Shown: in pieces, positions 1,025 to 20,432 of the stretch
How the letters are laid out: every line of letters begins with the position of its first letter
How positions within the stretch are numbered: position 1 is the first letter of the stretch
NCBI RefSeq assembly: GCF_001701025.1
Contig: NZ_CP016793.1
Location: 62,001-126,000 of the forward strand
Length of the DNA stretch: 64,000 nt
Reading direction: 5' to 3'
Origin: Lentzea guizhouensis
GTDB lineage: Bacteria > Actinomycetota > Actinomycetes > Mycobacteriales > Pseudonocardiaceae
Notes under the pieces: generated by a model
The model's database searches: none
What the model was told of the DNA's origin: nothing
What the model saw: the letters and a program-made list of their open reading frames with translations, nothing else
Position numbers and translations under genes: made by a program

Positions 1025-1151
1025 AGTTTCATAGTTCCGGCAACTGCACGTCATACCATTGACCCGATTGATCTAAATCGAAGCCGATATGGCGAAGTTT
1101 GCTCGTCACGTCCGGATAATGGGCGGGCTGCCTATCCGGTTGGGAGCCCCC

Positions 1152-3266
1152 GTGGAACAGACACCACGCGCCGAGCCACGGGCGGTCCTGGCCGTGGACG
1201 TGGAGAAGTTCAGCGACCCGAGTCGGACGAACCACCACAAGAGCGTCGTGCAGGACGGGTTGTACGAAGCGCTGCACGCCGCGTTCCACGAGAGCAACAT
1301 CGCCGAGGAGAGCTGGTACGTCGAGGACAGGGGCGACGGCGCGCTGTTCCTGTTCACGCCGGAAGTGCGCAAGCAGGTGCTGACCGACTCCCTCCTACGG
1401 CGGATGGGTGCGAACCTGCTGCGCTACAACGCCACCGTCACGCCCGAAGCCCGCATCAGGCTGCGGATCGCGCTGCACTTCGGCGAGGTCGTGATCAACG
1501 ACAAGGGTGTGGTCGGCGACTGCGTGAACCACACCTTCCGGTTGCTCGACGCCCCTCCGCTCAAGACGGCGCTGGCCGGGTCGACCAGCCTGCTCGCGGT
1601 GGTCGTGTCCGAGGAGTTCTACCGGCACGTGCTGCGGCACGACCCGGCGGCCGAACCGCAGGCGTACAGGCAGATCGAGGTCGTGGTGAAGGAAACGACG
1701 GCCGCGGCGTGGATGCGGCTGTCACCGGAGTCGATGCACGGGACGCCGCCCGCGGCAGCCACTCCCCCGCCGCCGGTGGAGACCACCGAGCACGCCGTCG
1801 TGAGCAGCGGCGAGTCGCTCGTCCTGCTCGCCGACATGATCGCCAGGACGACGCTGCTGGCGAGCCAGGACGACCGGCGGCTGTGCCTCGACCTGCTGAG
1901 CATCTCGCTGAAGCCGCGACTGCAGGTCGTCGAGTTCACCGACGCCCGGCGGCACGTGTTCGCGATCGTGCTCGCCTGCGGACGTCGTCCCGACGGCATC
2001 CGTGCGCTTCTGAAAGCCTTGCGCGAGCTGCGGCCGGACGCGCCGGAACTGGACCAGATCAGCACTCTCGTGCACGACATGGCCACCCTTGAGCTGTTCG
2101 AGGCGGACGACCGCCGCACCCTCGTCGACCTGGTGCAAGGCACCGACTTCCCCCAGCTCGCCGAGTGCTACCGCGCCGCCGCCGGCAGCCAGGCCACCCC
2201 GCTCCCGCCCGGCAGGCACGACACGATCGACGTCCTCCACCGGTTGGAGGGCATGAACGCCCGGCCCGACGGCCTGCCACCGGCGCTGGCGCTGCTCGAG
2301 CACCTCGCGCTGCACGCCGGCGACATCCTCTCCCAGCGGCTCTGGCAGTTCTCCGAGGACCAGGCCCGGGAGATGGGCCTGCACACCGAGCTGCTCGCCC
2401 TGCGCGGTTCGATCTCCGCGGATGCCACCGACACGGTCGCCCCCGCCGAGGCGTCGCTGGTGCTGCGCCTGCAACCGCACGGCGTGCTCCCCGACCAGTA
2501 CCTGCTGTCCGAGTGGCGTCAGACGAGCTCGACCACCTGGTCACCACAGCGCGGCCGGGACTACGCCGGCAGCCTCGCCGAACTGCGGGTGCGCGCCGGT
2601 GAGCTCGTCGCCGGAGCAGAGGGCTGGGCGGAGAACGCCGGCACCATCTCCATCGAGTTCATCCTCCCGAAGGACCTGCTGAACCTGCCGGTCGACCAGT
2701 GGCTCTGCGCCTCGGACGAGGTGACCACGCCCATCGGGCTGAACTACCCGGTGTCGCTGCGTTCCCTGGAGAGGGGCAGGGACAAGGCGAAACACCGCCG
2801 GTGGAAGCAGCGGTGGAATAACCTGCAGGCACACCTGCAGGCAGGCGACAGCCCCATCGACGACGCGGTGCACCGCAGCAGGCTCGACGGCCCGCGGGAA
2901 CGACACCTGCAGAAGCTGGCCGCCAAGCTCGCCCTCGTCGAGGACGTCGTGCTGCTCGTGCTCGCCGACCCGCCCGCGGCCGGCGAGAGCGTCGGCAGGC
3001 TCGAGGTCGCGATCGCGCTCAACGCCGGCGTGCCCGTGCTCGTCTGGCACCGGGAGGACTGCGCGGGCAAGGCGTTCCAGACCACCGTCGACGACCTGCT
3101 GGCCGACGGCGGGCTCGGCAAGCTGCTGGAGAACGTGAAGAAGCTGCGCGGTCAGGCCCTGTACTCCGACGACTGCGACGCACATCCCGGCGCGCACCTC
3201 AGCGTCCTGCTCGACGACCCGGACCGACAGGTCGAACCCCTGCCGCAGGAGGTGACGGCGCCTTGA
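1152..3266 (+). CDS. Class III nucleotide-cyclase domain fused to VMAP protein
   Basis: About 704 aa. Residues 10-190 look like a class III adenylate/guanylate cyclase homology domain: metal Asp16 in AVDVEKFSD, Asp62 in RGDGALF, and the GDCVNHTFR segment carrying the Asn and Arg normally needed for catalysis, so it may be active. A helical middle part (about 215-430) resembles effector-associated/VMAP-M regions. The C-terminal 250 residues resemble the VMAP-C domain of vWA-MoxR-associated proteins. The GTG at 1152 is chosen because GGGAG precedes it; an ATG at 1089 is in frame. The stop overlaps the TTG start of the MoxR gene by four bases. Family assignment is from memory; the cyclase as the system's effector is inference. 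Confidence 0.75.
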   Translation: MEQTPRAEPRAVLAVDVEKFSDPSRTNHHKSVVQDGLYEALHAAFHESNIAEESWYVEDRGDGALFLFTPEVRKQVLTDSLLRRMGANLLRYNATVTPEARIRLRIALHFGEVVINDKGVVGDCVNHTFRLLDAPPLKTALAGSTSLLAVVVSEEFYRHVLRHDPAAEPQAYRQIEVVVKETTAAAWMRLSPESMHGTPPAAATPPPPVETTEHAVVSSGESLVLLADMIARTTLLASQDDRRLCLDLLSISLKPRLQVVEFTDARRHVFAIVLACGRRPDGIRALLKALRELRPDAPELDQISTLVHDMATLELFEADDRRTLVDLVQGTDFPQLAECYRAAAGSQATPLPPGRHDTIDVLHRLEGMNARPDGLPPALALLEHLALHAGDILSQRLWQFSEDQAREMGLHTELLALRGSISADATDTVAPAEASLVLRLQPHGVLPDQYLLSEWRQTSSTTWSPQRGRDYAGSLAELRVRAGELVAGAEGWAENAGTISIEFILPKDLLNLPVDQWLCASDEVTTPIGLNYPVSLRSLERGRDKAKHRRWKQRWNNLQAHLQAGDSPIDDAVHRSRLDGPRERHLQKLAAKLALVEDVVLLVLADPPAAGESVGRLEVAIALNAGVPVLVWHREDCAGKAFQTTVDDLLADGGLGKLLENVKKLRGQALYSDDCDAHPGAHLSVLLDDPDRQVEPLPQEVTAP

Positions 3267-4300
3267 GCCGCACTGCGAACTGGCACATCTACACCGGTAC
3301 CGGGCAACCGCGCGCCGACGTGGACCTGCGTGCCGAGCTGCCGGAACCGCCGCCGTGGCGGGAGTTCCGCGGCGGTCCGGTGCTCGCGACGCCGACCGGT
3401 GACGACCACGACAACAGCAGGCGGATAGGCACACCGGGCGCGGACACCTCCTACCCGGCGGACCGGCACGAGATCGACATGGTCAACGCGGCGTTGTTGT
3501 TGCGCAGGCCGTTGCTCGTCACCGGCGGCCCGGGCACGGGCAAGACGTCGCTGGCGTTCCGGGTGGCGCGGGAGCTCGCGCTCGGGCCGGTGCTCACGTG
3601 GCCGATCACCTCCAGCTCCAAGCTCCGCCAGGACGGGCTGTACGAGTACGACGCCATCGGCCGCGTGCACGCCAACAGCGCCAAGGCGAGCGGGGTGACC
3701 GACGAGCCGACCGACATCGGCAACTTCGTCCACTTGGGACCGTTGGGCACCGCGTTGCTGCCCTTCGAGCTGCCGCGCGTGCTGGTGATCGACGAGATCG
3801 ACAAGGCGGACCTGTCCCTGCCGAACGACCTGCTCGCCGTGCTCGAGGACGGCGAGTACCTGGTGCGCGAGCTGGCCCGCGTCGCCCGCAGGACGCCGAA
3901 GGTCGTGGTGCACACGGCGGACCCCGGCGGCAGCGCGGAGATCACCGAAGGGCACGTGAGGTGCCGCGCCTTCCCGTTCATCGTCTTCACCAGCAACAGG
4001 GAACGCGAGTTCCCCCCGGCGTTCCTGCGCAGGACGCTGCAGCTGGAGATGCAGCCGCCGAACGAGGACCAGCTCGCGAGCATGGTGGCGGCGCACTTCA
4101 GGAACGCCTCGGACGGCTCGGCCGAGCTCATCAGGAAGTTCCTGCGCCGCAGCGAGTCCGAGGGCGGCCTCGCCATCGACCAGCTCCTGAACACCGTCCA
4201 ACTGGCCGCCACCTCCAGCGGGCTCACCGAAGACCGCGCGTCGTGGGAACGACTCCGCGACGCCCTCTGGCACCGGCTCTCGACCACGGGGTTCGAATGA
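3263..4300 (+). CDS. MoxR-type AAA+ ATPase
   Basis: 345 aa starting at a TTG that overlaps the upstream stop. Walker A is GGPGTGKT (residues 88-95, Lys94); Walker B is VLVIDEIDKAD (Asp177, Glu178); the sensor-1 region reads FIVFTSNRERE. MoxR ATPases work as chaperone-like remodelers with a vWA partner. Here the upstream neighbour is a VMAP protein and the downstream neighbour, overlapping by four bases (ATGA), carries a vWA-like domain. That is the vWA-MoxR-VMAP ternary arrangement described for NTP-dependent conflict systems. The C-terminal 80 residues form the small helical lid. Confidence 0.88.
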   Translation: MSRTANWHIYTGTGQPRADVDLRAELPEPPPWREFRGGPVLATPTGDDHDNSRRIGTPGADTSYPADRHEIDMVNAALLLRRPLLVTGGPGTGKTSLAFRVARELALGPVLTWPITSSSKLRQDGLYEYDAIGRVHANSAKASGVTDEPTDIGNFVHLGPLGTALLPFELPRVLVIDEIDKADLSLPNDLLAVLEDGEYLVRELARVARRTPKVVVHTADPGGSAEITEGHVRCRAFPFIVFTSNREREFPPAFLRRTLQLEMQPPNEDQLASMVAAHFRNASDGSAELIRKFLRRSESEGGLAIDQLLNTVQLAATSSGLTEDRASWERLRDALWHRLSTTGFE

Positions 4301-7300
4301 GTCCCCCGGAGCGCGACATCACCGCGCGGGACGTGGCGGACGCCCTGTGGCTCGCCAGCCACGTGTGGCGTATGAGCAGGGACGCGGCGGAAGCCGGTGC
4401 CGTTCCCGCGGCCCCGCTCAGCCGGCACCCTGCGGCGGAGGTGCTGTTGCCACCTCCGGGAACGGGACAGGAGACGTCGCTCTCCCCGTCAACGGCAACC
4501 GGACAGGAGACGTCGTTCTCGCCGCCGCCGGACCTCCCTCGCGGACGGAGGTCCCAAGAGGACACTCCGCTGCGCTACTTCGCCAACGCGCCGGCGGAAC
4601 CCGGTAGGGCACCGGTCACCGAGAACCTGCCGCAGACCCGCGCCATCTCCCGCGCATTGCGCCCGTTGGCCACGCTCGTGCCCTCGGACCGCGAGGTGGA
4701 GTTCGACGAGGAGGCCACCGCTGTCCGAGTCGCCGAGACGGGAGTGTGGTTGCCGGCCTTCCGTCCGACGATGGTTCACCCGTTCGAGGTCGTGCTCGTC
4801 ATCGACACCGCGTCACTGGACATCTGGCAGCGCGAGATCGCCGACTTCCGCGCGGTCCTCGAGACCCAGGGCGCCTTCCACACCGTGCGGCTCGTCTTCG
4901 CCGACTTCAACGTGGAGAACGCGATCGACCTGGTGCTGCGCAGTGGTGGCCCGGACGGCCCCACCCGCAGCCCCGCGGAACTGCTCGACCCGACCGGCCA
5001 CCGCCTGGTCCTGGTCATGACCGATGGCGTCGGCAGGGCCTGGCACACCGGCGCCGCCGAGCGGGTCCTCGGCTACTGGGGCCGTTCGGTGCACGTGAGC
5101 GTCGTCGACCTGTTGCCCCAGGACCTGTGGAGCTGGACCGGTCTCACGACCACGCGCGTGCAATTGCGCATGCCGGCCGCCGGTGCCCCCAACAGCCGCA
5201 TCCGGTACCTCCTGACCGACCCCTCCGACGAGCGCCCGCCCGACACGGCGGTCCCGGTGCCCGTCCTGGAGCTGCGGCCGGACTGGCTGGAGCACTGGAC
5301 CCGGCTCGTCACCGCCGCGGGCCCTGCCGTGCACCTCACGACGTTCTTCGCCGATCCCGGTGCCAAGGAGAGCAGTTTCGAGGTCGACCCGCTCCCCCAC
5401 CTCAGCCCGGCCGAGCGCGTCACCCGGTTCCGCACGTTCGCCTCGCCACCGGCTTTCTCGCTGGCCGGCCTGCTCGCGGCGGCCCCGGTACCACTGCGCC
5501 TGCCGGTGATGACCGTCGTGCGCAAGACCGTGCTGCCGGACACCAAGCTCTCCCACCTCGCCGAGGTGCTGCTGAGTGGTCTGATCGAGCGCGAGGAGTC
5601 CCTTCCCGGCACCTACGAGTTCCGGGACGGGCTGCGCCAGGAACTGCTGGCGACGTGCTCACGGGCCGACACGGCACGAGTCCTGCGCACAGTCGCCGAC
5701 TTCCTGGGTCCGAATGCCGAAGCCGCCCGAGGCCTCAGGGAAGCACTCGACGACCCACACGCGGACATTTCCGAACCCACTCCGGAGTCGCTCCCCTACC
5801 TGCGCCTCCAACAAATCATCTTCAGGGCCATGTCCGGACCCTATGTCAAACGCTCCAACGCTATCAGGGCGGTCCTAAGTGAACTGAATGAGCACCACTC
5901 TAAGGGCATGACGCAGGTCACTGAGACGATTCAGCCCGTGTCTCACACCAACGACGACGAGCCGCCCCCATCAGTTTCCCCAATAAGTGCAGCTGGCCCG
6001 GGAGGGACGTTGACGCTACACGACCGCCAACCCTCGTCCACGTTCCTGAGCCGACAGGAAGACGTTCCAAGGGCGTGGTCGGCGCCGCCGCGGAACTTCA
6101 ACTTCACCGGGCGAACAGAGATGCTCGCCGCGCTGCATTCTCGTTTGACCTCCAGCGACAACAACCTCACCGCAGTGGTTCCCGAAGCACTTTACGGTCT
6201 TGGCGGGATCGGTAAGTCACAGGTCGCCATTGAGTACGCTTATTTGCACGCCGACGATTATGACGTGGTGTGGTGGATACCGTCAGAGGACCCGACGCAC
6301 ATTCGATCGGTGTACATCGCACTGGCGGAGAAGCTGGGAATTCCCAACACCGGTGCGGTCAACGCCGTGATCGAGGCGGTGCGCGAATCTTTGCGCCGCG
6401 GTCATCCTTACCGGCGCTGGCTGCTCGTGTTCGACAACGCCGAAAACCCAGAGGACGTCCGTCCATTCTTCCCCACCGGCGGTTCGGGACACATCTTGGT
6501 GACCTCACGCAACACCCACTGGTCCAGCGTGGCGCAGACCGTCCAGGTCGACCTGTTCAGCCGAGTGGAGAGCAGGCAGCTGCTACAGCGCCGCAACCAG
6601 GGCCTCGGGGACGACGACGCCGAACAGATCGCCGACGTGCTCGGAGACCTCCCGCTGGCGATCGAGCAGGCCGCGTCATGGCTGCGGGAGACGGGCATGA
6701 ACGCCGACGAGTACTTGGCGCTGTTCGCGCAGAAACGTGCGGAGCTGCTCGAAGCCGGTTTGCCGCTCGATTACCACGTGCCGGTCGCCGCCGCGTGGAA
6801 CGTGTCGCTCGACCGCCTCAGCGAGGAGAACCCGGCAGCTCTGCAGTTGCTCCAGGTCTGTTCTTTCTTCGCGCCCGAGCCGATCAGCAGAAGCCTTTTC
6901 ATCGAGCTGCAGGGAATTCCGGTGCCGAACGAGCTCGGTGAAGCGTTGCGCGATCCGTTGTTGCTCGGGAAAGCAATGCGGCAGATCAACAGGTACAGCC
7001 TGGCCCAGATCGACCAGAGCAAGTCCACGATTCTTCTGCACCGGCTGGTCCAGGGGGCGTTGTTCGACCGGATGACACCGCAGGAACGCGCTCAAATGCG
7101 TCACGCCGCTCACGTCCTGCTTGCGACCGACGACCCTCGCGGACCGGGCAGCGAGAAGAACTGGCCCAAGTACATCGAGCTGCTGCCCCACGTGCGTGCC
7201 TCGAAGATGCACGAGTGTGAGGATCCGTGGGTCCGCCGCACGGCTTTGCACAGCGCCGTGTTCCTCGCCGCATGGGGTGACGACCAGGCGGGCTTGGACT

Positions 7301-8553
7301 ACTCCCAAGAGCTTTTCGACTATTGGGCGCAAAGGTTCGGCGAGGATAAACCCGACACGCTGAACGCCGCCAAACAAGTCGGTATCTGCCTGAGGGCACT
7401 CGGCCGCTATGCGGACGCCCTGCGGGTCGACGAACGCGCGTACGCGGTCGCGCAGGAACATCTGGGTGATGAATCCGAGAACACCCTGATCCTCGCGAAC
7501 ATGGTCGCCCAGGACGTGCGTGCCCAGGGCGAGTTCGCCAAAGCGTTCCAACTCAGCGATGGTGCGTACCGGACCGCGAAAGTGGTCTACGGCGCGGAAG
7601 ACGGGCTGACCCTCGCGGCGGCGGAGAACCTCGGGATCGCGTTGCGCCTCATCGGCCGGTTCGCCGACGCGAGGGACATCGACCAGTCCACCTGGGAGAT
7701 CCGCGCACGCCTGCTCGGCGATGAGCACCGGTTCACCCTCGCGACCTTGAACAGCCTCTGCCTGGACATCCGCGAGTGCGGGGAGTACGTCCAGGCCAGG
7801 GACATGCTGGAAACGGCGGTCGCGAAGCACCGCAGGCTCTTCGGTGACGACCACCCGGACACGTTGCGCGCCATCAAGAACCTGGCGGTCACGAGACGCA
7901 AGGCCGGCGACCACAACGGAGCCCTCCACCTCTCCGAGGAGGTGCTGCTGAGGTACACGAAACGGTACGGCGAGGCCTACCCCGGATCGCTGGCGGCGTC
8001 GATGAACCTGGCGGTCGACCTGCGGCAGACGGGAGCGCTCGCCGAGTCGCGCGACCTCGGGGTGCGCGTGGTGCGGGCCTACGTCGACACGCTCGGCGAG
8101 GGTCACCCCTACGTGCTGGCCGCCAAGACGAACCTCGCGGTGGCCCTGCGGTTGCTGGGTGACGTCGAGGAGGCGTCAGCTCTGAACGAGGACGCGTTCG
8201 TCACCATGCAGGACGCTCTGGGCTACGACCACCCGTTCACGCTCGTGTGCGCCACGAACCGGGCGAGCGACTTCGCGGCGTCCGAGGAGTTCGACAAGTC
8301 CTACGCCCTCAACCAGAGGGTGCTCGAACGCTCGAACCGCGCGCTGGGCGAGGACCACCCGTCCACGCTGGCCTGCCGGACCAACATCGTGCTCGACCTG
8401 CGCGGTCTCGGCCGCACGGCGGACGCGGAGTCGATGCAGATCGACGTGATCAAGAGGTTCCAGCGCGTGCTGGGCAAGAACCACCCCGCAACCATCGCCG
8501 CCGCCAGCGGCACCCGTGCGGACTGCGACCTCGAGGCGCTGCCGACGGGGTGA
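4297..8553 (+). CDS. fxsT: vWA-like + NB-ARC STAND ATPase + TPR protein (FxSxx-COOH system TPR type)
   Basis: 1418 aa. Residues 1-160 form a low-complexity/N-terminal region of the SAV_2336 kind. Residues 160-300 are vWA-like (hydrophobic strand ending in Asp170, then LVLVMTDG). Residues 600-900 are an NB-ARC STAND ATPase: P-loop GLGGIGKS (634-641), Walker B WLLVFDNAE, then GDLPLAIEQ as the GLPL motif. From about residue 1005 to the end run about ten 42-residue TPR repeats with the kinesin-light-chain-like GDDHPDTL pattern. The architecture matches the FxSxx-COOH system tetratricopeptide protein. The TPRs would sense a ligand and the NB-ARC would switch by oligomerisation. The gene overlaps moxR by four bases and ends four bases from the convergent RiPP-like pair. 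Confidence 0.85.
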   Translation: MSPPERDITARDVADALWLASHVWRMSRDAAEAGAVPAAPLSRHPAAEVLLPPPGTGQETSLSPSTATGQETSFSPPPDLPRGRRSQEDTPLRYFANAPAEPGRAPVTENLPQTRAISRALRPLATLVPSDREVEFDEEATAVRVAETGVWLPAFRPTMVHPFEVVLVIDTASLDIWQREIADFRAVLETQGAFHTVRLVFADFNVENAIDLVLRSGGPDGPTRSPAELLDPTGHRLVLVMTDGVGRAWHTGAAERVLGYWGRSVHVSVVDLLPQDLWSWTGLTTTRVQLRMPAAGAPNSRIRYLLTDPSDERPPDTAVPVPVLELRPDWLEHWTRLVTAAGPAVHLTTFFADPGAKESSFEVDPLPHLSPAERVTRFRTFASPPAFSLAGLLAAAPVPLRLPVMTVVRKTVLPDTKLSHLAEVLLSGLIEREESLPGTYEFRDGLRQELLATCSRADTARVLRTVADFLGPNAEAARGLREALDDPHADISEPTPESLPYLRLQQIIFRAMSGPYVKRSNAIRAVLSELNEHHSKGMTQVTETIQPVSHTNDDEPPPSVSPISAAGPGGTLTLHDRQPSSTFLSRQEDVPRAWSAPPRNFNFTGRTEMLAALHSRLTSSDNNLTAVVPEALYGLGGIGKSQVAIEYAYLHADDYDVVWWIPSEDPTHIRSVYIALAEKLGIPNTGAVNAVIEAVRESLRRGHPYRRWLLVFDNAENPEDVRPFFPTGGSGHILVTSRNTHWSSVAQTVQVDLFSRVESRQLLQRRNQGLGDDDAEQIADVLGDLPLAIEQAASWLRETGMNADEYLALFAQKRAELLEAGLPLDYHVPVAAAWNVSLDRLSEENPAALQLLQVCSFFAPEPISRSLFIELQGIPVPNELGEALRDPLLLGKAMRQINRYSLAQIDQSKSTILLHRLVQGALFDRMTPQERAQMRHAAHVLLATDDPRGPGSEKNWPKYIELLPHVRASKMHECEDPWVRRTALHSAVFLAAWGDDQAGLDYSQELFDYWAQRFGEDKPDTLNAAKQVGICLRALGRYADALRVDERAYAVAQEHLGDESENTLILANMVAQDVRAQGEFAKAFQLSDGAYRTAKVVYGAEDGLTLAAAENLGIALRLIGRFADARDIDQSTWEIRARLLGDEHRFTLATLNSLCLDIRECGEYVQARDMLETAVAKHRRLFGDDHPDTLRAIKNLAVTRRKAGDHNGALHLSEEVLLRYTKRYGEAYPGSLAASMNLAVDLRQTGALAESRDLGVRVVRAYVDTLGEGHPYVLAAKTNLAVALRLLGDVEEASALNEDAFVTMQDALGYDHPFTLVCATNRASDFAASEEFDKSYALNQRVLERSNRALGEDHPSTLACRTNIVLDLRGLGRTADAESMQIDVIKRFQRVLGKNHPATIAAASGTRADCDLEALPTG

Positions 8554-8557
8554 ACGC

Positions 8558-10255
8558 TCACTCCCCGGCCCACGCGGCGACCGCTCGTGGGTCGGGGACG
8601 ACACCGGTGCGGCGCAGGACCTCCGCGTACACCGCCACCACGACCTCCGGTGCGGTCAGCAGGGCTCGCGCCGCCGGATCCGCCAGCCCCAGGCCGATCC
8701 ACGCCGGCACGTCGTCCGGCCGTGCCACGACGTCAGCCGCGTACAGCCGTGCCGCGCCGGCCTGGTCGCCGGTCACGTGCAGCAGGTCCGCCGCGGTGGC
8801 CCCTGAGACGGTGACCGCCCGGTCCGCGAACTCCGCGGGCGCCTGCAGCCACAGCCGGCGCAGCTCCGTGCGGGCCGGCGGTGAAGCCGGTCGCGGTTCG
8901 AGCACCGACTGCGGCAGTTCGTCCCTCGGTTTTCCCTCCAGCCAGGCGTCCGCGAGCCGTCTGATCGCGGCGGGGTCCGGCCTGAGGTGCCGGGCGCGCC
9001 AGACGGCCCGGTGGTCCAGTGCCGCGAGCCGCGCCTCGTGCCGTGCCGGCGCCCGGACCCGGATGCGGCTCCAGGACGCCAGCCTCGCCGCCATGACGGT
9101 GGCGAACCTGCGGCCGAGGGGCGTCAGCTCGCGGCACTCGCGCAGGAAGCGCGCCGCGTGCGTGGTCTGGCCGCACCAGTAGGCGAACTCGAAGTCGGCA
9201 CGGTCCGACGGGTCGGCCTCACGACGTTCTCGCCAGAAGTCCACAACGCCGAGAAACGCGAACACACCCTGGTAGAAGCCGCTCACCGGACGTGGGTCGT
9301 CCCGCCAAGGTGCGTAGCAGCGAGCGGCTCCGCCGACGGCGCAGAGCGGTTCCATGGTCGCGAGCGCGGCGAGTTTCGTGTGCTGGACCTCGTGCGCGAG
9401 CGCTTCGGCGAACGCGGCCGAGTCCGGTGGCTCCGACATGAGCACCGCGCCGTGGGCGTCGGCCGACGATCCGCTGTAGGGCCTGGCGTTGACCGGCGAG
9501 ACCGGCACGATCGTGCTCACGAGCGCGGAGAGCGCCTTCGCGTGTTCGGTGCCCAGCAACGCCCACGCCTCGGACAGGCCACCGTCCCAGCGGGCGACCT
9601 CGCTGTCGGTCAGCCGGTGCGGCTCGACCTGGGCGCGGAAGTCCCGGTGCGGCTCGACGTCGTCCAGCAACGGTGTGAAGGCGCCCTTGCCGATCCGCCG
9701 CACCGGAGACCAGTTCTCGTCCTCGGGCACCCCGACCGTGCGCCCACCGCACGACAGCGCGAGCCGGCCGGCCAGGTTGTCCGCACGGGCGACGTCCCAC
9801 GGCCGCACTCCCGGCAAGGTCGCGATGCCCAGCGAAGGCAACGAGATGAGGCCCCGGCTCACCGGGACGGCCAGGGAGAAGTCGATGCCGCAGCGATGTG
9901 CCGCCGCGGCCGCCACACACCTGAGATAGCCGACGCCCACCCACAGGGGTTCGGCCGACTCCATCGTGCCGTGCAGCCTCCTGAGCAGATCGGCGAGCCA
10001 CACACCGACCTGGGGCAGCAACAACACCTCCCGCACGAGCTCCGGGGACTTCCGCTGCGCCACCACGAGCAGGTCCCACGCGTCGTCGACGCCCAGCGGG
10101 AACGACCGGTCGGAGATCTGTTCCAGCAGCGCGCGCAAACCGACCAGCCGGGCGCTGAACTGGCCGTCGCTCAACAGGGCCAGGAGCTCGTCGTCGCCAC
10201 CGCCCCACGCGAGCCGGTCGACCGAGCGCAACGACAGCCGGTGGGGGTTCAGCAC
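8558..10255 (-). CDS. aKG-HExxH-type peptide beta-hydroxylase (RiPP-modifying)
   Basis: 565 aa. The key motif HEVQH lies at residues 288-292 within AFAEALAHEVQHTKLAAL. The layout (helical N-terminus with several Trp/Arg-rich segments, central HExxH, about 270 helical residues after it) fits the family once called HEXXH-motif putative peptide modification protein and now linked to alpha-ketoglutarate/iron-dependent beta-hydroxylation of peptide residues. The GTG start at 10255 overlaps the end of the 78-aa precursor-like gene by seven bases, so the two are translationally coupled. Family members usually sit beside FxsA-type peptides. No radical SAM partner is present in the window. Substrate residue unknown. 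Confidence 0.85.
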   Translation of the reverse strand: MLNPHRLSLRSVDRLAWGGGDDELLALLSDGQFSARLVGLRALLEQISDRSFPLGVDDAWDLLVVAQRKSPELVREVLLLPQVGVWLADLLRRLHGTMESAEPLWVGVGYLRCVAAAAAHRCGIDFSLAVPVSRGLISLPSLGIATLPGVRPWDVARADNLAGRLALSCGGRTVGVPEDENWSPVRRIGKGAFTPLLDDVEPHRDFRAQVEPHRLTDSEVARWDGGLSEAWALLGTEHAKALSALVSTIVPVSPVNARPYSGSSADAHGAVLMSEPPDSAAFAEALAHEVQHTKLAALATMEPLCAVGGAARCYAPWRDDPRPVSGFYQGVFAFLGVVDFWRERREADPSDRADFEFAYWCGQTTHAARFLRECRELTPLGRRFATVMAARLASWSRIRVRAPARHEARLAALDHRAVWRARHLRPDPAAIRRLADAWLEGKPRDELPQSVLEPRPASPPARTELRRLWLQAPAEFADRAVTVSGATAADLLHVTGDQAGAARLYAADVVARPDDVPAWIGLGLADPAARALLTAPEVVVAVYAEVLRRTGVVPDPRAVAAWAGE

Positions 10256-10485
10256 GTGATCAGCGGCACCGGTCCCCGCTCGTCGACCCGGTCAGGCAGA
10301 ACGCTTCCGCTGCAGTCGGAGCCCGAGCTGTTCATCCGTGCCGTGCGGTGCAGCGGGTCGGACACGTCGCGCAGCACCGTGCGCACCGAGGCCGCGACCG
10401 ACTCGTCGGTCGTGTGCCGGAGATCGTCGAGGGAAATGCCTGTCAGGTCGACGAGTTCGCAGTTCACCTCTGCAGCGTCTGCCAT
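10249..10485 (-). CDS. FxsA-like RiPP precursor peptide with atypical core
   Basis: 78 aa, with a strong ribosome site (GGGGAGG) before the ATG at 10485. Residues 11-41 (ELVDLTGISLDDLRH then ...ASVRTVLRDV) follow the pattern of FxSxx-COOH leader peptides: a DLTGI-PL-DLR motif and an amphipathic helix ending in RTVL. The C-terminus ends PVPLITC and not FxSxx. The peptide has no Phe, Tyr or Trp at all, so a cyclophane of the usual FxsB type cannot form. Residues 52-61 are Ser/Gly-rich with Asp57 and Cys58, and Asp/Arg/Pro residues follow: candidate sites for the adjacent hydroxylase. Precursor role is inferred from leader similarity and coupling. Confidence 0.7.
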   Translation of the reverse strand: MADAAEVNCELVDLTGISLDDLRHTTDESVAASVRTVLRDVSDPLHRTARMNSSGSDCSGSVLPDRVDERGPVPLITC

Positions 10486-10764
10486 GGGTTTCCTCCCCGA
10501 CTACCGACGGTGACACCGACGTCACTTGCATCATGCCCAATTGACATGGGATATGGGAGATCCTTTCGCGTACTTGCGTACTGCTCCATCTGCGCCATTC
10601 CCGCGAAAACGCTCACGTGCGGACATCAAAACCTTGGTGCGCCGCGAAAGTTGACAACATGTGGACACCGATTCCCCGTCGTGGGGCAATGTCGGCGTGG
10701 CGAGGTGGTGAGTTGCGGACTTTCCGGCCGCAGCCGCCGCGAGCGTCCTTTGTGGAGTGCCGGG

Positions 10765-11439
10765 TCACCTGTCGCGGATCAGCGACCCGGCTTCTGTCAG
10801 GCCGCGCAGCACAAGGCTGAGCGCGTGTGCGAGGTGCTCCTTGTGGCCGTCGAGCGCCTCGGAGGTGATGCCGCCGGCCGTGGCGTCCGCGACGTCGTCG
10901 GTGGCCGCCTTGAGCACCGCGCTCATGGCCGCGGCCTGCACCCGGACGTCGATCGAGCCGGGTGGCAGGTCCATCCGGTGGGCGAGCACCTCGGCCAGCG
11001 CGTCCTCGTCGCGTTCGCGCAGCATGAGGTAGGCGGCGCGCAGGCCCGGTTCGTGGTGGGTCAGCCTGACGACCGCCAGGACCGCCTCGACGTCCTCGTC
11101 GGAGCCGGCGTCGAGCACCGGCTGGTAGGCGGCGCGGAGGTGGTCGATCAGGTCGAGCTCGGGTGGCCAGGCGCGCAGGACCGCGCAGAAGGCGTCGACG
11201 CTGCGGGTGAGGAGCGGTTCGACGCTGCTCTCCTTGTGCGGGAAGTGGCGCCAGAAGGTGCGTTCGGAGACGCCGGCCGCCTGGGCGATCTGGTCGCCGG
11301 AGGTCGCGGCCACGCCCTGTTCGGCGAAGAGGCGCACGGCGTGGCGGGAGATGTCGAGGCGCTGCCGCTGACGTTGCTCGTCGCTGACCGGTGGCCGACC
11401 CCTGCGGGGTGCCCCGGTTTCTGCCACAACGTCCGTCAT
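10765..11439 (-). CDS. TetR-family transcriptional regulator
   Basis: About 224 aa. The N-terminal HTH is typical of TetR: AVRLFAEQGVAATSGDQIAQ then GVSERTFWRHFPHKES (about residues 33-70 in this start). The C-terminal ligand domain is not assignable to a substrate. It is divergent from the P450 gene at 11513, with a 73-bp gap that holds a 15-bp palindrome. It therefore most likely represses itself and the P450-ferredoxin pair. The start at 11439 (MTDVVAETG) is preferred to the in-frame start at 11460. Confidence 0.88.
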   Translation of the reverse strand: MTDVVAETGAPRRGRPPVSDEQRQRQRLDISRHAVRLFAEQGVAATSGDQIAQAAGVSERTFWRHFPHKESSVEPLLTRSVDAFCAVLRAWPPELDLIDHLRAAYQPVLDAGSDEDVEAVLAVVRLTHHEPGLRAAYLMLRERDEDALAEVLAHRMDLPPGSIDVRVQAAAMSAVLKAATDDVADATAGGITSEALDGHKEHLAHALSLVLRGLTEAGSLIRDR

Positions 11440-11476
11440 CGGCCGATTTAAGCACGTCACCTGGTCGTGGGATTAA

Positions 11477-11491
11477 TGGCAGGGGCTGCCA
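11477..11491. promoter_or_regulatory. Palindrome, candidate TetR operator
   Basis: A perfect inverted repeat, TGGCAG-GGG-CTGCCA, in the divergent TetR/P450 intergenic region, 21 bases before the P450 start codon. Its position fits repression of both genes by the adjacent TetR protein. It was not compared with characterised operators. Confidence 0.5.
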
Positions 11492-11512
11492 ACAAACGGT
11501 ACGGTCGGGGTC

Positions 11513-12727
11513 ATGAGCATTGCTCCCGAACGCCTTCAGCTGCCTCTGCCCAGGCCGAACGTGCTCGAACTGGCCCCGCTCTACGCCCTGCTCCGCAGGG
11601 AGGCCCCGATCGCCCCGGTCACCACACCGGCGGGCGACCCGGCGTGGCTCGTGACCCGGTTCGAGGAGGTGCGCCTCCTGCTCGGCGACAAGCGCTTCGG
11701 CCGCTCCCACCCGAACCCCGACCAGGCCGCGCGCATCTCGACCGCGGCGGTGCAGGACGGCCCCACCGGTGAGTACGAGACCGAGGAGGCCGACCACGCG
11801 CGCATGCGCCGGCTGCTCACGCCCGCCTTCTCCGCCAAGCGGATGCGGATGCTGTCCGACCACATGGGACAGTTGACCGAGGGCTACCTCGACGCGCTGG
11901 TCGCCGAACACGAGACCGCCGGTGTCGTGGACCTGCACCACGGGCTCGCGTTCCCGTTGCCGGTGGCCATGATCTGCCGCCTGCTCGGCGTGCCCGAGGC
12001 CGACCGCGAGCTCTTCGCGGCGCTGTCCGAACGCATGGCGGGCACGGCGATCGGCGAGGAGGCGCACCAGGCGCGGGAGGAGTTCTTCCGCTACATGGTC
12101 GGCCTGATCGAGACCAAGCGGCCCGACCTCGGCGAGGACGTGATCTCCGACCTGGTCCGCGCGCAGGGCGCCGACTCGGCGTTCGACTACGAGCAGATGG
12201 TCCGGCTGTGCGTCGGCCTGCTGTTCGCGGGCCACGAGACCACGGTCAACCGGATCGGGCTCGGCGTGCTGTTCCTGATGACGAACCGCGAGCACTGGGA
12301 CAGGCTGGTCGCCGACCCGCAGGGCCACGTCGACGCGGTGGTCGAGGAGATCATGCGTCTCGGCGCACCCGGCGACCTCGGCCTGCTGCGCTACGCCCGC
12401 GAGGACGTCGACATCGCCGGCGTGACGATCGCCCGCGGCGACGCGCTGATCCTGTCGATCAACGCGGCGAACCGGGACGTGGACGTCTACTCCGAGGCGG
12501 AGGCGTTCGACCCCGACCGTCCGGAGAGGACACACCTCGGGTTCGGCCACGGCGCCCACTTCTGCATCGGCGCGTCGCTGGCGCGGACCGAGCTGCGGGT
12601 GGTGTTCGAGGCGCTGGCCCGGCGGCTGCCGGAGATGCGGCTGGCCAAGGACGTGTCCGAGCTGGAGGTCCGCGAGACGCTCACCGGTGGGGTGTCGGAG
12701 CTGCCGGTGACGTGGAGGTCGGCGTGA
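11513..12727 (+). CDS. Cytochrome P450 monooxygenase
   Basis: 404 aa, soluble bacterial P450 size. The I-helix oxygen-binding motif is LLFAGHETT, the K-helix ExxR is EIMR, and the haem loop is FGHGAHFCIGASLAR with the cysteine thiolate ligand. It is coupled by a GTGA overlap to a ferredoxin that probably supplies electrons; no ferredoxin reductase is nearby. The sequence resembles CYP105/CYP107-type actinomycete enzymes, but the substrate cannot be read from the sequence. Control is probably by the divergent TetR protein. Confidence 0.93.
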   Translation: MSIAPERLQLPLPRPNVLELAPLYALLRREAPIAPVTTPAGDPAWLVTRFEEVRLLLGDKRFGRSHPNPDQAARISTAAVQDGPTGEYETEEADHARMRRLLTPAFSAKRMRMLSDHMGQLTEGYLDALVAEHETAGVVDLHHGLAFPLPVAMICRLLGVPEADRELFAALSERMAGTAIGEEAHQAREEFFRYMVGLIETKRPDLGEDVISDLVRAQGADSAFDYEQMVRLCVGLLFAGHETTVNRIGLGVLFLMTNREHWDRLVADPQGHVDAVVEEIMRLGAPGDLGLLRYAREDVDIAGVTIARGDALILSINAANRDVDVYSEAEAFDPDRPERTHLGFGHGAHFCIGASLARTELRVVFEALARRLPEMRLAKDVSELEVRETLTGGVSELPVTWRSA

Positions 12728-12918
12728 AGGTGACCGTGGACCAGGAGAAGTGCGTCGGGGCCGGGCAGTGCGTGCTGGCGGCCGATGACGTGTTCGACCA
12801 GCGGGACGAGGACGGGTTGGTGGACCTGCTGAACCCCAGCCCGTCCGATGACCGGGGCACGGACGTGCGGCACGCGGCCGCCGTGTGCCCGGCGGCCGCG
12901 ATCTCCGTGGAGGACTGA
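12724..12918 (+). CDS. P450-partner ferredoxin, [3Fe-4S] type
   Basis: 64 aa, starting at a GTG that overlaps the P450 stop. Cysteines are Cys10, Cys16 (CVGAGQC, with the middle position occupied by Ala13 and not Cys) and Cys55 followed by Pro. That three-cysteine pattern is typical of the [3Fe-4S] ferredoxins encoded next to actinomycete P450s. It transfers electrons to the upstream P450. The gene ends 22 bases before a strong hairpin. Confidence 0.92.
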   Translation: MKVTVDQEKCVGAGQCVLAADDVFDQRDEDGLVDLLNPSPSDDRGTDVRHAAAVCPAAAISVED

Positions 12919-12940
12919 AAGCTGTGGTGCAGTGCGGCCG

Positions 12941-12965
12941 GCGCAGTGCGGTCGACGCACTGCGC
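12941..12965. terminator. Bidirectional hairpin terminator
   Basis: A perfect 10-bp stem (GCGCAGTGCG / CGCACTGCGC) with a 5-nt loop lies between the convergent ferredoxin and cupin genes. There is no long T-tract, as is common in high-GC actinomycetes. Confidence 0.65.
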
Positions 12966-12969
12966 CACC

Positions 12970-13437
12970 TCAGTCGATGAAGTACGAGTCGTGCTTGTCC
13001 CGGAACGCCTGCAGCTCGTCCGCCGCCACCTTGCCCACCCGTTCGAAGTACTCCTCACGGGCGCCGGGGGTGAAGAGCAGCAACAGCTCGGCCTTCTCGT
13101 CGGAGTCGTTGCGGAACGCGTGCAGGCCGCCCTGCGGGACGTGCAGGAAGTCGCCCGCGCGCGCGTCGACCCACTTGTCGCCGTTGTAGAGGCGCACGAC
13201 GCCGTTGAGGATGAAGAACGACTCCGAGATCGTGCGGTGGAAGTGGGTCGCCGGGCCGCCCGCGCGGGGCTTCATCACCACCCGGTACAGGCCGAACTCG
13301 CCGCGGGTGGTCTCGGTGGTCGCGAGGTAGTGGACGCCACCGTCGGGCGTGCCGGTGTCGATCGGGGTGCTCGCGGGGCGGAAGGTGGCGTTGACCTCGC
13401 CGCCCTCACCGAAGTAGACCTGCTCTGGGTAAGACAT
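12970..13437 (-). CDS. Cupin-domain protein
   Basis: 155 aa single-domain cupin. Cupin motif 1 is seen around THFHRTISESFFILNGVV (two His and a Glu as likely metal ligands) and motif 2 around GDFLHVPQGGLHAFRN. Small cupins of this type act as metal-dependent dioxygenases, isomerases or binding proteins; nothing here fixes the substrate. The gene is alone, convergent with the P450 unit and in the same direction as the kinase downstream. Confidence 0.85.
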   Translation of the reverse strand: MSYPEQVYFGEGGEVNATFRPASTPIDTGTPDGGVHYLATTETTRGEFGLYRVVMKPRAGGPATHFHRTISESFFILNGVVRLYNGDKWVDARAGDFLHVPQGGLHAFRNDSDEKAELLLLFTPGAREEYFERVGKVAADELQAFRDKHDSYFID

Positions 13438-13500
13438 GCCGCAACTGTCCTCTCGTGGGCTTCTCCCGGTATGACACGGCAGCGGCGCCGGATGTGACAG

Positions 13501-14994
13501 CTACTGCTTCATCAGCGGCTCGGTCAGCGGCGTCCCGTCCGCCTTGCCCACGAAGCAGTGGATGACGCGGCTCGAGTGCCGGTAGCCGTTCTCGGTCTTC
13601 ACCTTCCACGACTCCGCGGTCGGGATGACGACCCAGTACCTGAGCGTCTTCTCCTTGTCCTGCCCGCCCACCTTGTCCGACAGGAACGTGCGGGTGCAGA
13701 CGGTGCCGCCGATCTTCGTCAGCTCCTCGACGCCGGGGTAGGGCACGTCCTGCTGGATCTCGGAGTTGGCGACGACCGTGTCGAGGACCTCGGTGGCGTG
13801 CTCCTTGTAGCAGCCGCCGCGGTCCTGCGGCTTGATCGGCGGGGCGTCCTTGGCCGGGGTCCAGGTGAGGCAGTCCTTCTTGAACGCCCCCAGGCCGTCG
13901 TCCTTGATGTCGCCGTCCACGCCCACGGTGAGCACCGGTTGCATCGCCGGGGTGCTGGCGGGGCCGTCGCCGAGGCCGAGGCCCGCGTTGTCGAGCAGCG
14001 GCTTGAAGACCGTGAAGTAGAGCAGGACGAACGCGCCGATGATGAACAGCGGGGTCAGGGTCGCCGACAGGATCACGCCGACCGGGCGGCGGCGTTTCGG
14101 TGGTACCTCGACTGGTGGGGCCGGGGTGAGGTGCGGAACCGGCGTGACGGGCGGAACCGGCGTGATGGGACGGGTCGCGTCGCGCAGCCCGTCGCCCAGC
14201 ACGCGTTCGATCAACCGGTGCGCCTGCGCGACCCCGAGCCTGCGCCTCGGGTCCGGGTCCATCAGGCCGGTGACCAGCTCGCCGAGCGGGCCGCCGACGC
14301 GGGGCACCGGGCGTTCGCTCATCACCGCGAGGATCGTCGCCGAGGTGGTCGGGCGGTCGAACGCGCCACGCCCCTCGACGGCGTAGAACAGCGTGGCGCC
14401 CAACGCCCACAGGTCCCACGCGGGTGAGGCTTCACCGTCGGCGAGGCGCTCGGGTGACATGTAGGCGGGCGAGCCGATCAACGTGCCGGTCGCGGTCAGC
14501 CGCGGGTCGTCCAGCGACTGCGCGATGCCGAAGTCGGTGAGCTTCGCGGTGCCCCTGGCGGGCACCATCACGTTGCCGGGCTTGACGTCCCGGTGCACGA
14601 CGCCCTGCTCGTGGGCGGCCTCCAAGGCGTTGAGCAGCTGGCCGGCCAGCGTGGCGGCGGCCTTCGCGCCGAGCGGGCCGTCGAGGTCGACGCACTCGTC
14701 CAGGGTGGGGGCGTTGACCAGCTCCATCACGATGAACGTCTCGTCGCCGGCGGAGATGAGGTCGTAGACGGTGACGACGGCGGGCTCGGACAGCCGGCTC
14801 GCGATCTTCGCCTCGCGCAGCACGCGTTCCTGGTAGACGGCGCGTTCGCGGGCGGGGACGTTGCCGGGCAGCAGCAGTTCCTTGACCGCGACCTCCCGGC
14901 CCAGCACGGTGTCCTCGCCGAGCCAGACGACACCCATGCCGCCCCTGCCGAGCTCGCGGACCAGCCGGTAGCGCCCGTTGCCCACCTCACGCAT
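13501..14994 (-). CDS. Transmembrane Ser/Thr protein kinase (PknB-like)
   Basis: About 497 aa. The kinase domain spans residues 9-270: glycine loop LGRGGMGVVW, Lys38 in VAVKELLL, catalytic loop HRDVKPGN (His134), DFG in LTDFGIAQ, and the APE-like YMSPERL. A proline-rich linker leads to one transmembrane helix near residues 310-330. The extracellular part of about 165 residues has four cysteines and no PASTA repeats, so its ligand is unknown. The start at 14994 is chosen because the kinase domain begins there; the longer in-frame extension runs into the divergent esterase promoter. Confidence 0.9.
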   Translation of the reverse strand: MREVGNGRYRLVRELGRGGMGVVWLGEDTVLGREVAVKELLLPGNVPARERAVYQERVLREAKIASRLSEPAVVTVYDLISAGDETFIVMELVNAPTLDECVDLDGPLGAKAAATLAGQLLNALEAAHEQGVVHRDVKPGNVMVPARGTAKLTDFGIAQSLDDPRLTATGTLIGSPAYMSPERLADGEASPAWDLWALGATLFYAVEGRGAFDRPTTSATILAVMSERPVPRVGGPLGELVTGLMDPDPRRRLGVAQAHRLIERVLGDGLRDATRPITPVPPVTPVPHLTPAPPVEVPPKRRRPVGVILSATLTPLFIIGAFVLLYFTVFKPLLDNAGLGLGDGPASTPAMQPVLTVGVDGDIKDDGLGAFKKDCLTWTPAKDAPPIKPQDRGGCYKEHATEVLDTVVANSEIQQDVPYPGVEELTKIGGTVCTRTFLSDKVGGQDKEKTLRYWVVIPTAESWKVKTENGYRHSSRVIHCFVGKADGTPLTEPLMKQ

Positions 14995-15111
14995 GGCGGG
15001 AAGTCTCGCAAGCCGATCACCCGGTCCGGTGACGGGGGCTCGGGTGACGGACACCGACAGCGTCGCCTGACGGGCGCGACGGAGGAACACGGGCACTTAG
15101 CGTGGCGCGAC

Positions 15112-16661
15112 GTGAGACGACTGACAAAGCTGTTCGCCACCAGCGTGCTGCTGTCCGCACTGGTGCCGCTTGCACCGTCGGCAGCAGCGAGCACCACCGA
15201 ATGCACGACCGTCCAGGTCACCGCGCCGGCCGGCGCGAAGGTCGAGTCCGTGGACGCCGTCGCGAAGCCCGGCGGGACCGTCACGTTCCCGCAGACGCCG
15301 CTGTCCGCGCCACCGCCGATCCACGACGTCCCCGCGTACTGCGAGGTCACCGTCACGCTCACGCACAGCGGGAGCGACCACGTGAAGGTCGTCGTGGCGT
15401 TGCCCGGCACCGGGTGGACCGGGCGCCTGCAGGGCGTCGGCGGCAGCGCGTACGCCGCCGGTGACTTCGGCGCGCCCCTGGTGCAGGCCGTGAAGGACGG
15501 CTACGCCGCCGTGTCGACCGACGCCGGTGTGCTCGACGGGCTCAACACCGGCTGGGCCGTCAAGAACGGCGCGGTCGACCAGACGCTGCTGACCAACTTC
15601 GCCTCCCGCTCGGTGCACGAGTCGGCGGTCGTCGCGAAGTCCGTGGTGCGCAAGCACTACCAGCGTTCCGTCACCTACTCCTACTGGAACGGCTGCTCGA
15701 CCGGTGGCCGCCAGGGCTACGCCGAGGCGCAGCGCCACCCGGACGACTTCGACGGCATCCTCGCCAACGCACCCGCCGTCAACTGGGCGCGGTTCGCCGT
15801 CGCGACGCTGTGGCCGCAGACCGTGCAGTACCAGGACGGTCACATCGTCAGCAACTGCGTGCTCACCGCGTTCCGCACGGCCGCGATCGAGGCGTGCGAC
15901 GCGAACGACGGCGTGCGCAACAACATCATCGACCGCCCGGACCGCTGCGGCTACGACCCGCGGCGCCTGGTCGGCACGAAGGTGCTGTGCGACGGCCAGG
16001 AGGTGACCGTCACCCAGGCCGACGCCGACGTGATGCGCAAGATCTGGGACGGCCCGGCCGACGAACGCGGCCGCAACCTGTGGCCCGGTCTGCCCAAGGG
16101 TGCCGACCTGTCTGGCTCGCCGGCACGCTGCCGGGTGCCTCCGGTCCCGGGTTCCCGGTGGCGGCGCTGTGGGTGCAGAGCTTCCTGCTCAAGCAGCCCG
16201 GCTACGACACCTCGAAGCTCACCTACCAGCAGTTCCGCGACCTGTTCCGGCAGTCGGTGCGCGAGTACGACTCCGTGATCGGCACCTCGGACGCGGACCT
16301 GTCGGCGTTCCGGCGCTCCGGCGGCAAGCTGCTGACGTTCGTGGGCACCAGCGACCAGCTCATCCCGCCCGGCGGCACGCTCAAGTACCGCGAGCAGGTG
16401 GAACGGACGACGGCGCACGTGAACGACTTCTACCGCCTGTTCCTCGCACCCGGTGTCGACCACTGCGCCGGTGGCGGCGGTGCGGCGCCCACGAACCAGC
16501 TCGGCGCACTCGTCGACTGGGTCGAGCGCGGCAAGGCCCCCGCGACGCTCGCCGCGGCGGCCCCCGACGGCTCGACGCGCAACCTCGGCGCGTACCCGCA
16601 GGTGTCGCGGTACGTCCACGGCGACCCGAAGGTGGCGTCGAGCTACCGCTGCACCCGCTAG
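15112..16661 (+). pseudogene. Secreted tannase/feruloyl esterase-family protein, frameshifted
   Basis: The GTG at 15112 opens a secreted protein with a Sec signal peptide ending near APSAAAS. The catalytic Ser region is NGCSTGGRQGY. The frame is lost at about 16111-16112, where one base is missing: the upstream frame ends in PKGADLS and the downstream frame resumes with WLAGTLPGASG. The second part carries the Asp (VGTSDQLIPPGG) and His (GVDHCAGGGG) of the CS-D-HC motif of this family. Joined, the protein would be about 516 aa, normal for feruloyl esterases that release phenolic acids from plant wall. The shift is either a true inactivating deletion or a sequencing error; both halves look otherwise intact. 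Confidence 0.8.
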
Positions 16662-16671
16662 CGAACCGAGT

Positions 16672-16698
16672 TCAGGGGGCCTGGTCCGGGCCCCCTGA
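16672..16698. terminator. Bidirectional hairpin terminator
   Basis: A perfect 10-bp stem (TCAGGGGGCC / GGCCCCCTGA) with a 7-nt loop sits between the convergent esterase and EF-hand genes, eleven bases after the esterase stop. Confidence 0.7.
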
Positions 16699-16706
16699 CC
16701 GTTCGC

Positions 16707-17261
16707 TCAGGTGCGCTGCAACGCGTCCGGGTAGAGCCAGCTGCCAGGGGTGTCCTCGGCCGGGTTCGTGTAGTAGTCCCGCACCGCCGCGACGTACTCC
16801 GCGACGCTGAGCGCCCCGTCGCCATCGGTGTCGAGGTGCGCGAACGCCACCCCGCACTCCTCATCGCCCAGCCCACGCGCCTTGAGCAGCACCGCGAACT
16901 CCCGCGCGTCCACCCGCCCGTCGCTGTTGGTGTCCGCGATGTCCAGCAGCTCCTGCACGACCTCCAGGAAGTCCGCCTCGATCGGCCCACCGGTCACGAA
17001 CATCGTGTCCATCGCCTCCCGGTACTCCTCCGGCGAGACCTGCCCGTCGCGATCGGTGTCGCAGTGAGCGGCCAGCATCTCCCAGAACCGGTCGTAGGCC
17101 TCCACCAGCTCCCGCCCGCGCTCCGAGGCGGCTGGCTCCCCGAACGCCCGCAACAACCTCTCCGCCAACGCGTAGACGTCGGCCAGCTCGATGAACCCGT
17201 TGCCGTTGACGTCGTAGTGGGCGAACGTCGAGTCGATCCTGTGCTGCAACACCTGCTTCAT
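16707..17261 (-). CDS. EF-hand calcium-binding protein (calerythrin-like)
   Basis: About 184 aa with four EF-hand loops in order: DVNGNGFIELAD, DTDRDGQVSPEE, DTNSDGRVDARE and DTDGDGALSVAE. Each has Asp at positions 1, 3 and 5 (or Asn) and an acidic residue near position 12, so all four could bind calcium. Length and spacing match the sarcoplasmic/calerythrin-like calcium buffers of actinomycetes. No signal peptide is visible. The start at MKQVLQHRID is preferred; a TTG at 17438 would add about 59 low-complexity Arg-rich residues. Confidence 0.85.
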   Translation of the reverse strand: MKQVLQHRIDSTFAHYDVNGNGFIELADVYALAERLLRAFGEPAASERGRELVEAYDRFWEMLAAHCDTDRDGQVSPEEYREAMDTMFVTGGPIEADFLEVVQELLDIADTNSDGRVDAREFAVLLKARGLGDEECGVAFAHLDTDGDGALSVAEYVAAVRDYYTNPAEDTPGSWLYPDALQRT

Positions 17262-17445
17262 GTCCACGCACTGTGGACACGCGACCCCTTCCGCGCAACG
17301 CAGGTCGCCCACCTGGGTGGAGTTGTTCAGCCGCTTCGGGCTCCGATGGGCCCCTCCCGCACGCCGAGAACGACCGAGCGAGCCGTTCCTGCCCGGCGCA
17401 CGCCGAGCTCGAGGAAGTGCCTTCCTGCGCTGCGTCAACCCGCGG

Positions 17446-18594: not shown

Positions 18595-18607
18595 CTCATC
18601 GGTCCAG

Positions 18608-20298: not shown

Positions 20299-20432
20299 GA
20301 TGCCTCCTCGGTGCGTGAGCAGACGGTTGATCGCACGACGAGCGGTGATCGTTTCACTCCAAGCGAATTCACCTCCGGGTGTTGCGTTTCCCTGGTCTGC
20401 GGCGATGTGCAGGGGGATGACAGGAGGTAGCG

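Follow-up and report, generated by a model that had tools for sequence, protein, structure and literature searches.

A precursor-like peptide gene overlapping an enzyme gene

We analyzed a 64,000-nt stretch of the Lentzea guizhouensis genome (contig NZ_CP016793.1, positions 62,001 to 126,000; here called the window), in which a gene for a standalone alpha-ketoglutarate (aKG)-HExxH enzyme and a small open reading frame (ORF) lie together on the minus strand at one end of a six-gene cassette. The small ORF (10249 to 10485) encodes a precursor-like peptide of 78 amino acids (aa) and has a strong ribosome-binding site (GGGGAGGAAACCC-ATG); the 565-aa enzyme is encoded at 8558 to 10255. The two genes share 7 nt (GTGCTGA; 10249 to 10255), with the enzyme start codon placed within the 3' end of the peptide gene, and the overlap was the same in all six loci compared. 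The peptide consists of a leader (approximately residues 1 to 51; 10333 to 10485, minus strand) and a tail (residues 52 to 78; 10252 to 10332, minus strand). It contains no Phe, Trp, or Tyr, lacks an FxSxx tail, and had no match in a Pfam set that did not include PF27839, a family listed for some of its relatives. The coordinates, the overlap, and the missing FxSxx tail are as given in an initial annotation of this DNA, which had described a minimal pair made up of an aromatic-free peptide with an FxsA-like leader and a peptide hydroxylase, lacking the radical S-adenosylmethionine (SAM) enzyme FxsB.

Successive protein searches gave lists of 19 and 25 relatives of the peptide, the window copy included, and we aligned 25 distinct precursors (the window peptide and 24 others). 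Residues C9, C58, G60, P64, P74, L75, I76, and C78 were invariant in all of them, T77 was present in 24, and every precursor terminated in PLI(T/K)C (PLITC type). The linker separating the two conserved tail blocks was variable, and both blocks were retained in the most divergent precursor, which was 55% identical. Scattered Phe, Tyr, or Trp residues occurred in 12 of the 25 precursors but never at a conserved position, so the description of the peptide as free of aromatic residues fits the window copy and not the type as a whole. Neither a C-terminal FxSxx motif nor a run of four contiguous acidic residues was found in any of the 25. An internal RxD beyond residue 51 was found in 13; in 12 of the 25, within the tail (10252 to 10332 in the window), an internal RxD followed LPx. 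The PLITC tail may represent an RxD-type tail whose reading frame came to extend across the spacer as far as the enzyme start codon.

Where sources were named, PLITC-type members came from Lentzea and from one record titled Nocardia sp.; other members came from contigs. Of 24 genomes of the genus, 6 (the window's genome included) encoded an enzyme at least 70% identical to that of the window, and the peptide ORF overlapped the enzyme gene in all six. Lack of conservation of the small ORF among genomes with this hydroxylase, named in the initial annotation as a finding that would count against its reading, was thus not seen. We judge the peptide to be real because it is conserved across precursors, and its pairing with the enzyme, seen in 6 of 24 genomes and with invariant core residues in 25 precursors, is more than a chance arrangement. 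A selection test on the six loci, weak as a test, gave a ratio of nonsynonymous to synonymous polymorphism (pN/pS) of 0.375 for the leader and 0.478 over 14 alignable core codons.

Assignment of the leader to the FxsA type, as initially annotated, was upheld by two comparisons. TIGR04268 (FxSxx-COOH) gave a partial match to residues 12 to 39 with 14.9 bits, below the cut-off of 28, and a profile comparison of PLITC-type with RxD-type precursors, rather than with FxSxx-type precursors, gave a probability of 96.8 and an E value of 3e-10 in hhalign, restricted to the leader. The second comparison is the better basis for the leader relation, and kinship between the PLITC-type and RxD-type leaders is firm at the level of sequence profiles.

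The enzyme and the search for a radical SAM partner

The enzyme matched TIGR04267, the model for aKG-HExxH-type peptide beta-hydroxylases, with 153.3 bits (cut-off, 40). Its HExxH motif is intact (HEVQH, residues 288 to 292), it has both HExxH and PWRxDxRP in common with ChlH and SjiH, and its predicted fold matches the aKG-dependent ChlH domain and SjiH (the latter known by its PDB title alone), in a comparison made against listed structures and compatible with other folds. Motifs, profile score, and predicted fold agree with the identity initially proposed for the enzyme, and together they suggest that it likely resembles an oxygenase and not a plain peptidase. Five PLITC-type enzymes formed a single clade in a quick tree, with a Shimodaira-Hasegawa-like approximate likelihood ratio (SH-aLRT) support of 100. 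The likeness to ChlH, PesO, PflC/PosC, BpmH, and SjiH consists of the TIGR04267 score above the cut-off, the two motifs (for ChlH and SjiH), and the predicted fold; the window enzyme differs from them in having an additional TPR-like C-terminal domain at approximately residues 456 to 544. The window peptide has an FxsA-type leader, in contrast to the NHLP leader of PflA, and the pair sits in conflict-system surroundings, unlike the oxygenases named above.

Elsewhere in the same genome (locus L054, C1:1216500-1236499, positions 8730 to 10926, minus strand), a gene encodes another TIGR04267 protein, which scored 77.5 bits and has the motif HEGAH. This gene precedes two small ORFs of the same orientation that have the C-terminal motif PVDWF(W/R)RMPNGGTV(Y/F) in common, and the locus may be a further peptide-oxygenase cluster with no relation to the FxsA leader. 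Three other loci (L024, L025, and L028) carry HExxH relatives with one in-frame stop in the matched region, reflecting decay or sequence errors.

The statement that the window lacks FxsB is correct and extends to the whole one-contig genome, where a search for an unlinked copy, as initially suggested, gave a best TIGR04269 score of 25.3 bits (cut-off, 370), from a gene that we take to be moaA. A scan of the genome for SPASM domains, which did not cover radical SAM families without SPASM, gave a single match, presumably PqqE judging from its sequence and neighbor. We rejected an unlinked FxsB in this genome. FxsB also scored below the cut-off in five of the six genomes with the pair (25, 25, 29, 67, and 101 bits). 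In the sixth (G017), FxsB scored 409.7 bits; its gene lies on another contig and adjoins its own HExxH and NB-ARC/TPR genes. No relative with the pair thus had FxsB just outside the operon, which the initial annotation had named as a finding that would count against its reading. Additional modification of the peptide by a radical SAM enzyme encoded elsewhere seems to us extremely improbable: the G017 gene speaks for it, but that gene has partners of its own, the 25 precursors have no conserved aromatic residue, and the scores in the window's genome nearly refute the idea there.

The supposition that the absence of FxsB makes the pair a variant is not supported. We examined 79 loci of the enzyme group, representing the best 80 of at least 497 confirmed relatives, by tblastn with six FxsB queries (E value, 1e-3) over as much as 10 kb to either side, or less at contig ends. 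FxsB was found within the fetched stretches of only three (L114, L141, and L162), and arrangements of this kind were published in 2020, as the relevant sections of PMC7159879 indicate. In a separate set of 32 loci, FxsB lay beside nine (L052 and L056 to L063), six of which had supplied the tblastn queries; L052 (genome G047) encodes a full-length relative of the window enzyme, 36% identical, together with FxsB.

The cassette and the proposed role of the peptide

The description of the pair as minimal is likewise not supported. It forms one end of a cassette of six genes, encoding a CRP-like regulator, a cyclase-VMAP, an AAA+ ATPase, a SAV_2336/NB-ARC/TPR protein, the enzyme, and the peptide, and we rejected the view of it as an isolated cluster. 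The CRP-like transcription factor binding cyclic nucleoside monophosphates (cNMP) (371 to 1054, minus strand; PF00027, 73.9 bits; HTH_Crp_2, 61.9 bits) is divergent from the VMAP gene and was 69 to 77% identical in the five other PLITC-type loci. VMAP (1089 to 3266, plus strand; the true start is possibly some codons downstream) carries a class III nucleotide cyclase-like domain at its N terminus, and the two divergent genes (371 to 3266) could form a cyclic-nucleotide circuit of the cassette. The AAA+ ATPase (3263 to 4300, plus strand; Pfam AAA_5, 33.3 bits, and AAA, 28 bits, above the cut-off) occupies the position of the MoxR protein in VMAP-ternary systems; bpMoxR scored 13.9 bits against it. 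The 1,418-aa SAV_2336/NB-ARC/TPR protein (4297 to 8553, plus strand, with ATG 4297 chosen as the start) is convergent with the enzyme gene and matched NF040586 (FxSxx-system TPR protein, 905.5 bits) and NF041121 (SAV_2336 N-terminal domain, 395.5 bits); Pfam TPR_10, TPR_12, and DUF7779 were above the cut-off, and NB-ARC was just under it (22.8 versus 23.5). The HExxH gene and small precursor gene were linked to VMAP and AAA+ genes in the window and in all five other PLITC-type loci. PADLOC supplied no defense label: the enzyme, VMAP, and the NB-ARC/TPR protein had no match, and the only matches, for the AAA+ ATPase (IetA, 24 bits) and for the CRP-like protein (cNMP-binding part, 41 bits), were weak and partial.

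As a kind, this arrangement is already known. According to the sections of Kaur et al. 2020 (PMC7159879) on these systems, approximately 20% of actinobacterial VMAP-ternary systems include a “zincin-like metallopeptidase” together with a small precursor, the precursor tails are of FxSxx, RxD, or acidic type (with a fourth type in FtsH systems), and the radical SAM gene is an addition in the FxSxx type. For the RxD and acidic types, the same sections describe fusion of the AP-ATPase to the vWA protein, and they also describe cNMP cyclases on VMAP and, in some cases, a CRP-like factor linked to such modules. With the RxD/acidic type as described there, the window cassette shares an HExxH protein and a small variable precursor beside VMAP and an AAA+ ATPase, an AP-ATPase/TPR protein in one polypeptide with the third component, the lack of FxsB, the cyclase on VMAP, and the nearby CRP-like factor. 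It differs in that the tail is neither RxD-terminal nor acidic, vWA was not detected, and the enzyme is oxygenase-like. With the FxSxx-COOH cyclophane system (FxsA, FxsB, and FxsT), it shares leader kinship and an FxsT-type TPR protein (NF040586) but lacks the FxSxx tail, the conserved aromatic residue, and FxsB. The C58..G60..P64..PLI(T/K)C tail looks like an undescribed variant outside the tail types listed in those sections, and the chemistry that they assign to the enzyme is likely due for correction, from peptidase to oxygenase.

We hypothesize that the 78-aa peptide is a substrate of the overlapping aKG-HExxH enzyme, which would recognize the FxsA-type leader and oxidize, most likely by beta-hydroxylation, at least one residue of the uncrosslinked tail without help from a radical SAM enzyme. 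The oxidized peptide would remain intracellular as the peptide component of the adjacent VMAP/AAA+/NB-ARC-TPR conflict system, controlled by a cyclic-nucleotide circuit (the cyclase domain of VMAP and the CRP-like regulator). Candidate sites of hydroxylation are the two invariant Pro residues of the tail (P64 and P74) or the Asp/Asn preceding C58. On balance, we consider oxidation of the peptide without a radical SAM enzyme and its use by the conflict system to be somewhat probable.

Several observations weigh against this hypothesis. ChlH needs a preinstalled cyclophane (as reported through PMC12636437, in its account of ChlH), and the window peptide cannot have one. No vWA domain was found in residues 1 to 601 of the SAV_2336/NB-ARC/TPR protein by Pfam or PDB sequence searches. 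PflC hydrolyzes a leaderless substrate with several metals (per the PflC experiments in PMC12636437), so that cleavage is possible, and this activity shifts weight from our hypothesis to the alternative that the HExxH protein cleaves the precursor, either as a zincin-like metallopeptidase or oxidatively, freeing a C-terminal toxin or signal peptide. The peptidase form was predicted by Kaur et al. 2020 in the sections cited above, PflC and PosC are described in the cited accounts as cleaving the backbone oxidatively, and profile scans found no obvious leader protease in the cassette block other than the HExxH enzyme. However, PflC left full-length PflA unhydrolyzed when oxygen was absent (PMC12636437, same experiments), the TIGR04267-family members characterized in the portions of the literature cited here hydroxylate, and the tail end has no conserved cut-site motif like the ARMD of PflA. 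We regard cleavage as unlikely.

A further point concerns the DNA at the end of the peptide gene. Its last five codons were near-identical in the six loci, even at silent sites, and no Shine-Dalgarno-like motif was found upstream of the enzyme GTG in these loci (the window's own stretch was judged by eye); for both reasons, this DNA may serve coupled translation, and conservation of the tail may be partly in the service of DNA or RNA. The overlap GTGCTGA also obliges the last peptide codon to start with TG, permitting Cys or Trp only. The terminal Cys is for this reason weak evidence for Cys chemistry, and we rejected it as a strong sign of such chemistry. On this basis, the PLITC ending might be kept for the sake of the DNA, which holds the enzyme gene's start and would couple translation, with the leader and the C58-P64 block as the working part. 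The overlap, however, does not force Pro, Leu, or Ile and leaves the conservation of C58, G60, P64, P74, L75, and I76 unexplained, and in other clades RxD is exactly C terminal, in precursors most of which end before the enzyme match without an overlap. We consider this explanation quite unlikely.

The hypothesis of an oxidized, intracellular peptide can be extended, although we think the extension decidedly improbable. Peptide hydroxylation dependent on O2 and alpha-ketoglutarate might gate an NLR-like (NB-ARC/TPR) conflict system, in which the TPR protein would read the free tail, PLI(T/K)C-COOH here and RxD-COOH in relatives, each tail being paired with a reader of its own. The animal hypoxia pathway has a prolyl-hydroxylation switch, and hydroxylation of a conserved proline or a neighbor could be analogous to it. 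The Cys tail would then be a fifth peptide class, born perhaps of the run-on of an RxD-type tail through the spacer. Actinobacteria commonly carry VMAP-ternary systems, for whose peptide the cited papers, in the relevant sections, offer a guess at function; should the HExxH enzymes prove to be oxygenases, the idea of a released peptide toxin or signal, as published, would need revision. With its overlapping pair, short conserved tail, and lack of a radical SAM enzyme, the cassette offers a simple case for locating the modification and for asking whether it switches the NB-ARC/TPR effector.

Distribution and genomic setting of the cassette versions

Among the 79 loci, the NB-ARC/TPR protein was present in 76, VMAP in 66, and the AAA+ ATPase in 41. 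A leader-bearing peptide lay beside the enzyme in 63 (13 had no match), as found with a loose leader pattern after removal of three false matches (L121, L127, and L170) and of a second match in L150. Of these peptides, 39 were RxD-like by a loose definition (R and then D, separated by no more than two residues, with at most three further residues before the end), 19 were of other kinds, 4 ended in PLI(T/K)C, 1 had FxSxx by pattern, and none was acidic. The four PLI(T/K)C loci (L096 to L099) belong to four of the six genomes with the pair.

Within the 24 genomes of the genus, 6 encoded the PLITC-type enzyme, 13 encoded a full-length relative 38 to 40% identical, and none encoded both; the chance of zero co-occurrence is 0.003 if genomes are independent, an assumption that does not hold. 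Of 15 non-PLITC loci examined in the genus, 6 also had the CRP-like gene, with some of the nine misses cut off at contig or stretch ends. The gene was 65 to 74% identical there, a similarity close to that among PLITC-type loci. In those six loci (L039, L040, L046, L048, L049, and L055), the rest of the block corresponding to window positions 371 to 10485 was 27 to 56% identical. It is as if cassette versions had been swapped beside a stable regulator. Both flanks were shared with the window only in G007, and the stretches from the other four PLITC-type genomes gave one stray flank match (L176); a single fixed chromosomal site was rejected on this ground, and the distribution suggests a movable cassette with alternative versions.

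Genes to the right of the cassette in the window (10765 to 17438; TetR, P450, cupin, kinase, and EF-hand) also occurred, inverted, near three loci on the RxD side (L046, L049, and L055), with the EF-hand gene nearest the cassette in all three and TetR absent in L055. Farther along the window, at 13501 to 22832, genes for a protein kinase, an EF-hand protein, a PP2C-like phosphatase, a vWA protein, and an FHA-domain ABC transporter are clustered.
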